Assembly: GCA_031256375.1 (NCBI GenBank)
Contig: JAIRQX010000040.1
Coordinates: 1 to 33,952 of the forward strand
Length of the DNA stretch: 33,952 nt
Reading direction: 5' to 3'
Source of the DNA: Deferribacteraceae bacterium
Lineage (GTDB): Bacteria > Chrysiogenota > Deferribacteres > Deferribacterales > JAISNW01
Every line of letters begins with the position of its first letter. The stretch's first letter is position 1. Below the pieces are notes generated by a model that searched no databases, had not been told where the DNA came from, and worked only from the letters and a program-made list of their open reading frames with translations. This document shows positions 5,198 through 9,568 of this stretch, piece after piece. The position numbers were made by a program, and so were the translations under genes.

Positions 5198-5204
5198 GCG
5201 GATA

Positions 5205-8200
5205 TTATTCCTGCGTATCAATAACCGTTTTAAGTAACACATCCGCGATATATTTGCTCTCAAGCCGCATAATACTTTCTTCAGTTCTGCCGAAACTCAA
5301 CAGGTTTATACTGCCGTACCAAACTATGTGCCCATCAACAACGGCATACTTCTGATGAATTTTTGAACGTTCCGCAACTGTAATATTGTGATCTTTCAGT
5401 GTTTTGATGATTTGTACAACACGCTCACGGTCATTATTGTTATAATCGCTTGCGGGGCGTGTTACAATTGTGACTTTTACTTCTGAAGATACAATATTCT
5501 CAAACATTTCCAACATCTTTTCCGTCCGGTATTTGGCAAGGAAAGGGCTTACAACTACAGTCTCACGCGTAGAAGAGTATAAATCGGCTGTGAATACAGG
5601 TAAAAAATTCACACTGTCAAATAGAATGTTTTCTATATCCGGTTTATTCCCTTCATTTTTAAACTTATATCCGATTGCCGAATATCCTTTGATACGTTTG
5701 GCATACATACTGTCAAAAGGCGCGACTCGGATATCTGCATAGTCATATACCCGTACTTCGCGCTTGTTATCACAAAGGCGATGAAGCCGTCCGGCATATT
5801 GCGCAAGCGTACCCTGCCATGCGATAGGCATAGACAAAAATAATGTATCAAGGCGCGGTACGTCAAAACCTTCACCAATATATTTTCCGGTGGCAATTAT
5901 CACAAGCTGTTGGTCCACAGGCGTTGTTTTGATTTGCTCTGTCAGCCTTTTACGTTCTTCTGTTTTTTGTCCGCCCAAAAAAGCTATAAGATGCTGCACT
6001 TTTCCATTTAAAGCATTTTTAAAAAACTCCACATGTGACTTTCTCTCTGTTAAAATCAACGGGTTCCTGCCTTCTGACACAGCTTCAAGCACATCTGAAA
6101 TAATCATATTGTTTCTGTCTTCATCCCTGCTGATATCGGCGTAGAGTTCATTTATAGATAACCGTGTATTATCTTTTTCAGTTAATATATTAAAAGATGT
6201 AAATCTTGGGATTACAAAATGTTCAAAAGGACGCCGCTTTGCCTGTAACTTGGCATCATCTTTGTATCGTATTGGTCCGCAGTGCATATAAATAATAGGC
6301 TGATGCCCGTCCCGCCGCTTTGGTGTGGCAGTCAAACCGTATATGAATTTTGAGTTTACCTCTTTTAACACCATCTCAAATGTAACCGCAGGCACATGAT
6401 GGCATTCATCAACAATCACTATACCGTAGTTTTTTACTATATCTCTAACAACATTTCCATGAAACAGCGATTGTATAACGGCAACATCAATAACTCCGCT
6501 GAGATTATTTTTGCCACTTCCAAGCTGCCCGATAACGCTTAACTCCTTTTTACGTCCGCGTTTCTTTTCAAACTGCGGCAACTGCTCATTAATTGTTAAA
6601 AATTCTGACAGTCGTGTTTCCCATTGATCAAGCAGTGGTTTACGGTTTACAAGAACCAAAGCGTTGACCTTGCGTGCAGCAATCAAGGCGGCAGCTACAA
6701 CTGTTTTACCAAATGCAGTGCTGGCAGACAGAACACCGTTGTCATTTTCAATTAGTTTTTCAAATGCTTTCTCCTGTTCATCATGTAAAATTCCACTAAA
6801 AGAAACGTTTATGATTCTCCCTTCAGTACGTTTGTCCTGCCATATTATTTCAACATTTAGCTTTTCAAGTAACTGTTTAACTTCGATTTTACAACCGCGG
6901 GGCAAACAGAGATATTTTTCTGTTTCGTTTGATATAGATATGATACGGGGTTTATTCCATACAGGAAGTCGCATAGCCTGCGCCCTGTAAAATTCAGGGT
7001 TTCTGAAAGCGGCAAAACGTTTCAAACGGTTTAACGCCCGTTGAGATATACCCTCTTTCTGAATATATAACAAATTTGCTTCAAACACATACACTTCTGA
7101 CGGAAAATCTGTACGGACAAGGTGAGGTTCCGGCGTTTTCTTCTGCCACGGCGCTTTTAGTTCATCATCTTCTTGAGTTTGGTATAAGTTACCCAACTCT
7201 TCGCCTCTGCATAGCGCTGCAATAAAATGCTCAGCTTTATTTACAGTCAAACGTTTTATATTGCTCAAAAACTCCCATTGGTCAGAATATTTTACAAAAT
7301 TTTTGTCAATAAACACACTGTTACCATCTTTTCTTGGTTTGCGTTGAAGCGGCAGAGCTATCAGATTGCCGAAACCGCCTTTCGGCATGATATCCTGATT
7401 GGGAAAGAGTCTGTCGTAGGAGTTGAATTTCAGTTCGTGGCATTTCTCCATAGCGGCAGTCAGAATAGCTGTGCCAAGTTTGCGTGCGGATACGGCGGAT
7501 AACGGTTCATCAAAGAAAAACCAAATATGCGCGCCGTTACCGGAACGTGAACGTTCCACAGCAACAGGAATTTGATGTATTTCACATACTTTACAAACGG
7601 CGGAAACGTCTTGCCGCCAACCATCATGATCAAAATCAATAGCTAGAAACAAGCAGCTTTCGTCCGGCAGCATTGGATATATCCCTGCAACTTCTTTGCC
7701 GGTAAGATGCCGTATGACAGCATATTTATCAAATGGAACAAATTCACGGTATTTGCAATCTGTACACTTTTTATTAGGTTTCCCGCATACAATGTTCCAC
7801 TCATTTTTACAAACAGGCGAATATCCTGATTTTTTTCTGTTGCTGTTCTCCCAACGCCGTGCATATACATCCTTTCTTCCTTGGAAAAGGGATAAAAATA
7901 AATCAATTTTTTCGTCATTCGTACTGTAATTTGTAATAATAGGCGACAAAACAGAAACAGACACAATCTTGTGAGGTTTTCGCCGTATTTTATTTATAAA
8001 ATCTACGGATTGTTTTAATCCTTTCACTGTTTTTGTTTCCAAAACACAACGGCAGTTATGTTTTTCAGCAAGGGATAATTTATCCGATATAATAATTTTT
8101 CCCTCACCCAACGGCAAATGGTCACTTTGATCATTTGCATCATGTATGTGCATATGTCCAAGTTTGGCGGCTCTTTTCAATATAAAAGACTCATTGGCGT

Positions 8201-8765
8201 TTCCGATGCAAAAATCGTGTCCAATATCGTAGGTTAACATGAATTTATCGCTTTCCAGTAAAATATCTATCCCTTTTTGTTGAAAATCGTGATAAATTCC
8301 GCAGTTTTCTATACAGATAATGATATTGCCGTTACATATAGCCTTGTCACAAACATCACGGAATAAGCGCAGTCCCGAAAAATATCTTTCCTGATATTGT
8401 TCGAAAAGATAAATCTTTTTGTCCGGTAAGGTAAAATATACACCAACTGTCATGTGCATATTTATAATTGGCGCATTTATTTCTCTGGCAAATTCAATAG
8501 TTTGCAAGACGGTTTCCAGATAAGCGTTGGCAACAAAGGGATTAAAATCACAAACATTCAGATTTTCTTCCAGATGAATAGTAAGGTACTTTCCGGTACC
8601 GGCAAGCATTTTACTGATAATATCCGCATCCGCTTTGTTTATCTGATACTCCGGAATATTCATATTAAGTTCAACAAAATCCAGATCAAGATCGGAACAA
8701 AGCGACAGATTTGGCTCAAGAGCTGGATTTTCAATTAATACAGGCATACCGAAATGAATGGGCAT
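5205..8765 (-). CDS. Four-domain fusion: metal-binding TIM barrel + TOTE-type AEP primase + SF2 helicase + PLD nuclease
   Basis: A single 1186-residue frame. Domain 1 (about 1-262) is a xylose-isomerase-like/AP endonuclease family 2 TIM barrel with H64, H104, E153, D180-x-x-H183, H206/H208, D215-H216 and E243. Domain 2 (about 282-510) is an archaeo-eukaryotic primase of the kind annotated in TOTE conflict systems: a four-Cys knuckle (C319, C327, C334, C337), catalytic D377 and D379 in LAIDFDHDGW, SGNGAH (408-413), and DRLFPNQD...GGFGNLIALP. Domain 3 (about 650-1010) is a superfamily 2 helicase: Walker A STAFGKT (682-688), DECHH (786-790), TATP (812-815), and QYAGRLHR (989-996). Domain 4 (about 1060-1175) has one PLD motif, H1137-x-K1139 with D1144 and GSIN (1151-1154). 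A site resembling GAGG precedes the ATG. It converges on cbiE and follows the acidic-tail gene on the same strand. An anti-element or repair role is inferred. Confidence 0.9.
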   Translation of the reverse strand: MPIHFGMPVLIENPALEPNLSLCSDLDLDFVELNMNIPEYQINKADADIISKMLAGTGKYLTIHLEENLNVCDFNPFVANAYLETVLQTIEFAREINAPIINMHMTVGVYFTLPDKKIYLFEQYQERYFSGLRLFRDVCDKAICNGNIIICIENCGIYHDFQQKGIDILLESDKFMLTYDIGHDFCIGNANESFILKRAAKLGHMHIHDANDQSDHLPLGEGKIIISDKLSLAEKHNCRCVLETKTVKGLKQSVDFINKIRRKPHKIVSVSVLSPIITNYSTNDEKIDLFLSLFQGRKDVYARRWENSNRKKSGYSPVCKNEWNIVCGKPNKKCTDCKYREFVPFDKYAVIRHLTGKEVAGIYPMLPDESCLFLAIDFDHDGWRQDVSAVCKVCEIHQIPVAVERSRSGNGAHIWFFFDEPLSAVSARKLGTAILTAAMEKCHELKFNSYDRLFPNQDIMPKGGFGNLIALPLQRKPRKDGNSVFIDKNFVKYSDQWEFLSNIKRLTVNKAEHFIAALCRGEELGNLYQTQEDDELKAPWQKKTPEPHLVRTDFPSEVYVFEANLLYIQKEGISQRALNRLKRFAAFRNPEFYRAQAMRLPVWNKPRIISISNETEKYLCLPRGCKIEVKQLLEKLNVEIIWQDKRTEGRIINVSFSGILHDEQEKAFEKLIENDNGVLSASTAFGKTVVAAALIAARKVNALVLVNRKPLLDQWETRLSEFLTINEQLPQFEKKRGRKKELSVIGQLGSGKNNLSGVIDVAVIQSLFHGNVVRDIVKNYGIVIVDECHHVPAVTFEMVLKEVNSKFIYGLTATPKRRDGHQPIIYMHCGPIRYKDDAKLQAKRRPFEHFVIPRFTSFNILTEKDNTRLSINELYADISRDEDRNNMIISDVLEAVSEGRNPLILTERKSHVEFFKNALNGKVQHLIAFLGGQKTEERKRLTEQIKTTPVDQQLVIIATGKYIGEGFDVPRLDTLFLSMPIAWQGTLAQYAGRLHRLCDNKREVRVYDYADIRVAPFDSMYAKRIKGYSAIGYKFKNEGNKPDIENILFDSVNFLPVFTADLYSSTRETVVVSPFLAKYRTEKMLEMFENIVSSEVKVTIVTRPASDYNNNDRERVVQIIKTLKDHNITVAERSKIHQKYAVVDGHIVWYGSINLLSFGRTEESIMRLESKYIADVLLKTVIDTQE

Positions 8766-8911
8766 AGATTACAACCTCAATGGTCAGCGCGTACAGATGC
8801 GGGATTTATCAAAATACCGTCGCCAAATATCAGGTATATGCTCTTCTTTACAGAATTAAATCTTTAAAAGATGTAAGTTTTTCCTCTCATTTTTAGTATT
8901 TAAAGAGTTAA

Positions 8912-9568
8912 TCACTTATCATCATCATCATCGTCATCGTCATAGTCATCATCATCGTCGTCATAGTCATCATCATCGTCGTCATAATCATCATCATCGT
9001 CATAATCGTCTTCGTCATCATAATCTTCTTCTTCTTCTGCCTCTGCTTTAAGCAGTTCATCTATCACAATCATATCATCCGCATTAGCAGCGTCTATATA
9101 ACACTCGCCAATCATATCCTCGGTTATCCAGATGTATCCGTCACATTCCAATGTTGCGTAAAAAACAGTCCCGAGACAGGCATTGATTTCATCAACCTCG
9201 TCCTCATCTAGTTCATCAAATTCACAGTCATATATCATTTCAATATATGCATATACCTCAAAGTTTGAAAGAAGACCATCTTCGGTTATTTCAAAAGCCT
9301 GACCCTTTGGGTTTTCCGGTATATAAAGCCCGCTTTTTATCACGCGGATGTCAATAATTTTATCGCAATCCACGTTTGACATAAAATCATCCTCCTCGAT
9401 TTGAATAATGTTCTCATCTTTGGGGTGTACAAATATTTCCGGATATTCTTTAAAAAGCTTTTCTAAAGTTTTTTTCATCTCTGCGTTTTCTAATTGGTCG
9501 CCATCAGGTGTTTCACACGCCCTGAAAATATGTCCGGCGCCCCTGTAAACATAGTAACCTTTTTCCAT
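8912..9568 (-). CDS. Unknown protein with Asp/Tyr-repeat acidic tail
   Basis: A 218-residue protein that I do not recognise. Residues 1-170 look like a folded alpha/beta domain (YYVYRGAGHIFRACETPDG at the start; EVYAYIEMIYDCEFDELD; YIWITEDMIGECYIDAANADD), already rich in acidic residues. Residues 176-218 are nearly pure Asp, Glu and Tyr, arranged as repeats of Tyr followed by five to eight Asp, ending in Lys. The gene has a clear ribosome site (GGAGGG) and good start. It lies 146 bp upstream of, and on the same strand as, the primase/helicase gene, so the two may be co-transcribed. Tails of this kind can mimic nucleic acid or bind metal or basic proteins, but that is speculation. There is no signal peptide or membrane segment. 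Confidence 0.7.
   Translation of the reverse strand: MEKGYYVYRGAGHIFRACETPDGDQLENAEMKKTLEKLFKEYPEIFVHPKDENIIQIEEDDFMSNVDCDKIIDIRVIKSGLYIPENPKGQAFEITEDGLLSNFEVYAYIEMIYDCEFDELDEDEVDEINACLGTVFYATLECDGYIWITEDMIGECYIDAANADDMIVIDELLKAEAEEEEDYDDEDDYDDDDDYDDDDDDYDDDDDDYDDDDDDDDK
8915..9033 (-). repeat. Coding microsatellite encoding the Asp/Tyr tail (about 21-bp period)
   Basis: On the plus strand, near-identical 21-base units (ATAGTCATCATCATCGTCGTC) start at 8943 and 8964. An ATAATC variant follows from 8985 and shorter TCATCA/TCGTCA units flank them. Each full unit encodes one Tyr and six Asp. The period is a multiple of three, so copy-number change alters tail length without a frameshift. Confidence 0.8.

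Follow-up and report, generated by a model that had tools for sequence, protein, structure and literature searches.

Domain organization of the fusion protein

The window analysed here is a stretch of 33,952 nucleotides from the draft genome of a Deferribacteraceae bacterium (1.95 Mb, 128 contigs, 95.6% complete). At positions 5205–8765 on the minus strand, an intact open reading frame of 1186 codons with 0 internal stops encodes a protein of 1186 residues, and this gene is the sole match in its own genome. According to the Pfam analysis, the protein contains in order AP_endonuc_2 (residues 22–259, 58.5 bits against a cut-off of 31.1), AEP-TOTE (PF22548, residues 285–512, 328 bits against 27), ResIII/DEAD/Helicase_C (residues 660–997; ResIII, 77 bits against 22.5; Helicase_C, 25.6 bits against 23.5) and PLDc_2 (residues 1064–1176, 34.7 bits against 27). 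Every one of these calls exceeds the curated cut-off. An earlier note on this DNA had given the coordinates, the length, the single frame, the four intact domains and the positions of the motifs (Cys4, D377xD379, K687, DECHH, QYAGRLHR and H1137xK1139), and all of these are right; the strand is minus.

The metal TIM barrel comprises residues 1–262 (7980–8765, minus strand, as are all features of the gene) and is followed by a junction of residues 263–281 (7923–7979). The AEP (PrimPol) domain of TOTE type, residues 285–512 (7230–7913), carries the motifs D377xD379, SGNGAH (408–413) and YDRLFPNQD. The Cys4 knuckle C319–C327–C334–C337 (7755–7811) lies within this domain, and its Cys columns are kept in most relatives. 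In a fold search, the domain matches the CAPP Prim-Pol (7nqd/7nqe); the NCBIfam model PrimPol_Msp gives 104 bits on the fusion protein, below its cut-off of 200. The helicase, residues 651–1036 (5658–6815), contains STAFGKT (682–688, with K687), DECHH (786–790), TATP and QYAGRLHR (989–996). It matches solved XPB structures by sequence and by fold; the fold search returned XPB and UvsW, XPB being the nearest, and thus both motifs and fold assign it to the XPB-like SF2 helicases. The C-terminal nuclease, residues 1064–1176 (5238–5576), has the PLD signature HxK...GSxN with a single HxK (H1137xK1139) and GSIN at 1151–1154, and the same C-terminal domain is present in the PLD-bearing relatives.

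The AlphaFold2 model of the whole chain has a pLDDT of 84.7 and a pTM of 0.63, and the barrel, primase, helicase and PLD domains are folded with good confidence. The barrel modelled alone has a pLDDT of 92.6. A linker of low confidence is located at residues 263–273 (pLDDT <50). Since the pTM is 0.63, the relative orientation and packing of the domains are not fixed by the model.

Gene neighbourhood

The neighbours of the fusion gene are housekeeping genes. The earlier note had described the frame as abutting cbiE by 7 bp, as if inserted beside a core operon. The gap is indeed 7 bases (5198–5204), and the two genes are convergent, tail to tail. In G002, the sole family relative in which both could be located, cbiDE and birA do not adjoin each other, and this relative therefore offers no empty site by which an insertion could be judged. 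An acidic ORF of 218 residues (8912–9568), also on the minus strand, precedes the fusion gene by 146 bp, and is possibly co-transcribed with it. This ORF has no Pfam or PADLOC match, and its long Asp-rich C-terminal tail is encoded by an imperfect tandem repeat (8909–9025, period 6/18/21). It was considered as a conserved partner and rejected, as no convincing homologue was found beside other TOTE genes.

In the scanned part of the window, no defence genes were found near the fusion; the sole PADLOC match is to a cysteine desulfurase whose gene lies next to a NifU-like one. A Pfam scan of 20 window ORFs revealed no partner genes with TPR, OB-fold or TBP, and no Cas gene was recognised among the window ORFs scanned (Pfam and PADLOC). 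The other large ORFs, such as GroEL, FolC and AccD, were named by their sequence, outside the Pfam scan. The TOTE conflict system is named after TPR, OB, TBP and Effector (PMC12458937). The window protein resembles these systems in its AEP domain (PF22548) and differs from them in that no TPR, OB or TBP partner was recognised around the gene, and therefore the name TOTE fits the domain and not the system. The TOTE-type core recognised in the earlier note stands in this restricted sense.

Among the neighbours of TOTE genes without a barrel are AbiEi/AbiEii, Abi_2, GmrSD, Schlafen AlbA_2 and a peptidase resembling IrrE. The PADLOC matches of 71 neighbours of such genes fall into 169 families, as against 6 families for 45 neighbours of stand-alone barrels; since the 169 include many redundant models for one small set of genes, these numbers are read as a contrast and not as a count of systems. 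At one locus (L139:192–6240), a GmrSD-type restriction gene is followed, after 7 bp and in the same orientation, by a TOTE primase–helicase–PLD gene. We infer a defence role from these neighbourhoods of relatives, and not from that of the window gene.

Relatives of the primase–helicase–nuclease core

Residues ~277–1181 have many clostridial relatives with 36–55% identity and with the same order of AEP, helicase and PLD domains. Several of these AEP-TOTE–SF2–PLD proteins (L037/L057, L090/L133, L039/L059 and L040/L060) agree with the window protein in domains and order from residue ~277 with 49–55% identity, whereas they begin with a coiled coil (others with a short DUF1653-like module) and lack a barrel. 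In the core tree, the window core is placed among the clostridial PLD-bearing proteins with moderate support (83/91 for a group of 13 rows). Shorter relatives without the PLD domain are found in a genome of the same phylum (G048) and on alphaproteobacterial plasmids, and TOTE cores are also present on several IMG/VR contigs and on plasmids. The domain arrangement of the primase–helicase–PLD part is already common, and only the join to the barrel is unusual. The clostridial TOTE primase–helicase genes are often split or contain stop codons (G234, G196, G230, G288, G539, G560 and others), which suggests that they are lost or inactivated rapidly.

CAPP Prim-Pols are DNA-dependent DNA primases and polymerases, and PrimPol–helicase forms are typical of mobile elements (PMC8211822). 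The CAPP-Helicase proteins, both CRISPR-associated and non-CRISPR (PMC8211822), are similar to the window protein in that an AEP Prim-Pol is followed by a helicase in one chain, as well as in the fold (7nqd/7nqe). In contrast, the window protein has an additional C-terminal PLD nuclease and an additional N-terminal barrel, and no CRISPR-cas gene was recognised among the window ORFs scanned; the non-CRISPR forms do not require a place in a CRISPR-Cas operon. By analogy, the window protein may be regarded as an effector of the CAPP-Helicase/TOTE-AEP type to which an extra nuclease and an extra barrel are added.

Ligands and ancestry of the barrel

Residues 1–262 are 36–63% identical to stand-alone clostridial proteins of ~265–285 residues. 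Four such AP_endonuc_2 barrels (L130, L131, L068 and L069) show 44–63% identity and share all the metal ligands; they differ from the window barrel in being separate genes. According to an alignment of 14 barrels, the homologues share the start point '..xFGMPxLIE', and thus the fusion contains the whole barrel from its natural start. In the barrel tree, the stand-alone barrels and the window barrel form one clade (support 100/100), in which L130 is the sister of the window barrel (100/99). This clade is separate from CbiR and from endonuclease IV, and the Nfo rows have their own branch (100/100). The earlier note had taken the barrel for a sugar isomerase or AP endonuclease. By ancestry it is neither, and it falls in a clostridial stand-alone clade with ligands of the Endo IV/CbiR type. 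Judged from the sequences, the barrel is an already known kind of protein, that is, a stand-alone clostridial one outside the Nfo and CbiR clades.

The ligand set of the barrel is H64, H104, E153, D180, H183, H206, H208, H216 and E243. All the metal-ligand columns of Endo IV and CbiR are retained, with H208 in addition, and columns 64, 104, 153, 180, 183, 206, 216 and 243 are identical in two Nfo sequences (L146 and L148). H64 and H104 are common to Nfo, CbiR and MJ1311. In the profile alignments, neither UlaE nor IolI, both mononuclear enzymes, has a residue that corresponds to H104. Such a pattern would suggest a site of the multi-metal phosphodiesterase type and not that of a simple sugar epimerase. 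The fold search with the barrel returned MJ1311, ketose 3-epimerases, UlaE and Endo IV.

As the ligands match those of Endo IV, and as the fold of the helicase is nearest to XPB, which is the partner of the nuclease Bax1 in archaea, a DNA-repair machine may be considered. In such a machine, the barrel would be an AP- or lesion-endonuclease, followed by the XPB-like motor, gap filling by PrimPol and trimming by the PLD domain, as an NER/BER-like chain in one protein. However, the genome encodes its own separate Nfo (L146), the barrel is outside the Nfo clade, and the barrel-less relatives adjoin defence and mobile genes and not repair genes. We consider this explanation improbable. The identity of the barrel as endonuclease IV itself is rejected on account of its clade and of the separate Nfo.

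Among the NCBIfam models, CbiR scores best on the barrel (36 bits), as it does on two of the stand-alone barrels. The scores of NF041277 on the barrel are 36–41 bits against a cut-off of 105, and therefore the barrel is not filed as CbiR. The likeness of the barrel to both CbiR and endonuclease IV is that of the metal-ligand pattern, and the clades are separate. If the protein were a cobamide-related enzyme, a CbiR-like barrel would be located beside cbiD/cbiE because of corrinoid remodelling; the NCBIfam match, the adjoining cbiE and the overlap of two stand-alone barrels with a histidine phosphatase-like gene could be understood in this way. Nevertheless, the score is far below the cut-off, the barrel is outside the CbiR clade, and the fusion gene and cbiDE are on opposite strands, unlike the members of the published CbiR set, which were selected as neighbours of the same orientation (PMC7733943). 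Moreover, it is hard to see why a corrinoid enzyme would be fused to a helicase. The cobamide link is rejected on score, clade and strand, and we regard this explanation as very improbable indeed.

Among 60 genomes searched, CbiR above the family cut-off was detected in 22, all of the same order or phylum, and in neither the own genome nor its four family relatives. The stand-alone barrel genes have no common neighbourhood and are found in non-defence settings. In two cases (L074:6062–7464 and L075:7090–8474), the barrel gene overlaps by 4 bp a histidine phosphatase-like gene of the phosphoglycerate mutase/CobC type, and this overlap hints that the barrel family may take part in a phosphate-ester pathway.

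The junction and the search for a second fusion

Sixty distinct TOTE-AEP N-termini were compared. Most of them consist of a leucine-zipper-like coiled coil and a spacer, ~40–130 residues in all. A short DUF1653-like module is present instead of the coiled coil in a few cases (L091, L104, L107 and L168); on L134, which is the same gene as L091, DUF1653 gives 20.1 bits, slightly below the cut-off. A barrel is present in only one of the 60, that of the window protein. A similar linker leads into the AEP domain in all the N-termini compared: ITNYS (277–281) in the window protein, comparable to VTNNS, ITNSS or VTNAS in relatives. As far as can be read from these sequences alone, a complete barrel has replaced the coiled coil directly ahead of the conserved TNxS linker. 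The DUF1653-like modules in place of the coiled coil indicate that the N-terminus is an exchangeable slot.

No second fusion of a barrel with a TOTE core was found in 1,336 genomes, a sample centred on the relatives of the window and on barrel-holding clostridial genomes, with large groups drawn evenly. The search of 72,556 plasmid and 50,697 phage records gave no place covering 80% of the query, and pattern scans of IMG/VR gave no fusion either. A scan of genome contigs yielded two stand-alone barrels only. At no other locus read is a barrel located beside a TOTE gene, and the own draft genome has no separate copy of either half. A paper joining TOTE with a xylose-isomerase-like barrel was not found in the literature searched, which is mostly open-access. 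The view of the earlier note that the form is undescribed therefore holds for the barrel fusion within these collections and papers, while the primase–helicase–PLD part is already common. What is new appears to be the join itself, both halves being known kinds of separate ancestry. The earlier note had regarded separate genes for barrel and primase in close relatives as speaking against its reading. They are literally separate genes in every relative found; since all of these relatives are outside the genus and family, the separation speaks for a fusion that is young or rare, and not for an artefact.

The reading frame continues across the join, which coincides with a domain boundary and lies in the interior of the contig, and the codon usage of the whole fusion gene is within the range of the neighbouring genes. 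Together with the lack of separate copies, these results make an assembly join unlikely. The draft state of the genome with its 128 contigs, the singleton nature of the fusion and the GC content of the barrel (0.359), which is more AT-rich than the rest of the gene (0.39–0.41), would be in line with an assembly or binning artefact uniting two unrelated stretches. Against the in-frame join inside the contig, the host-like codon usage and the absence of either half elsewhere in the genome, we give such an artefact very little credence.

The chief rival is a neutral or near-neutral fusion, in which adjacent or recombined genes merged and each half keeps its old job with no joint function. The fusion is a singleton in the 1,336 genomes, barrels and TOTE genes are not neighbours at any other locus read, and the TOTE genes of relatives, often split or stop-bearing, turn over quickly. 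As no second fused copy exists among those searched, there is no evidence that selection keeps the fusion. On the other hand, the exchange of the coiled coil for the barrel falls precisely on the domain boundary, and the intact frame of 1186 codons with all motifs kept and host-like codon usage indicates that the gene has probably persisted for some time. We take a neutral fusion seriously as a rival, although it seems rather unlikely.

Proposed function

The explanation that we favour, and consider somewhat probable, is that the gene encodes a mobile, defence-type primase–helicase–PLD nuclease of the TOTE-AEP/CAPP-Helicase kind, in which the coiled coil was replaced, in a lineage-specific fusion, by a stand-alone clostridial-type metallo-barrel. 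The function is inferred. As judged from the family, the XPB-like motor would open duplex DNA, PrimPol would prime or extend on the exposed strands, and the PLD domain would cut DNA, probably as a dimer because it has a single HxK motif. At the front, the barrel would contribute a metal-dependent step, either cleavage of a phosphodiester or binding of a substrate; it may supply the motor with DNA that is nicked or modified, or act on a nucleotide-like ligand. The coiled coil of the relatives may serve for dimerisation, and the barrel may take over this role. The natural role of the fusion protein would most likely be directed against invading DNA. The stand-alone barrels in non-defence settings and the lack of defence genes near the fusion in the scanned part of the window are points against reading it as a defence fusion.

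A more far-reaching version is that the N-terminal slot is a swappable sensor or targeting position. The protein would then be a four-enzyme, single-chain defence machine, in which the metallo-phosphodiesterase barrel sets off the motor, primase and nuclease by cleaving a specific nucleic acid, foreign or modified, or else a nucleotide signal. We regard this version as doubtful; if true, it would represent a new effector design.

In the favoured explanation of a defence-type enzyme with an exchanged N-terminus, this widespread, little-characterised family of primase–helicase–nucleases has an N-terminal slot that can be exchanged, holding a coiled coil, a DUF1653-like module or a metallo-barrel. 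The function of the barrel would be a handle on what the defence-associated primase–helicase–nuclease enzymes recognise, and it would also inform the uncharacterised clostridial barrel clade with Endo IV/CbiR ligands.
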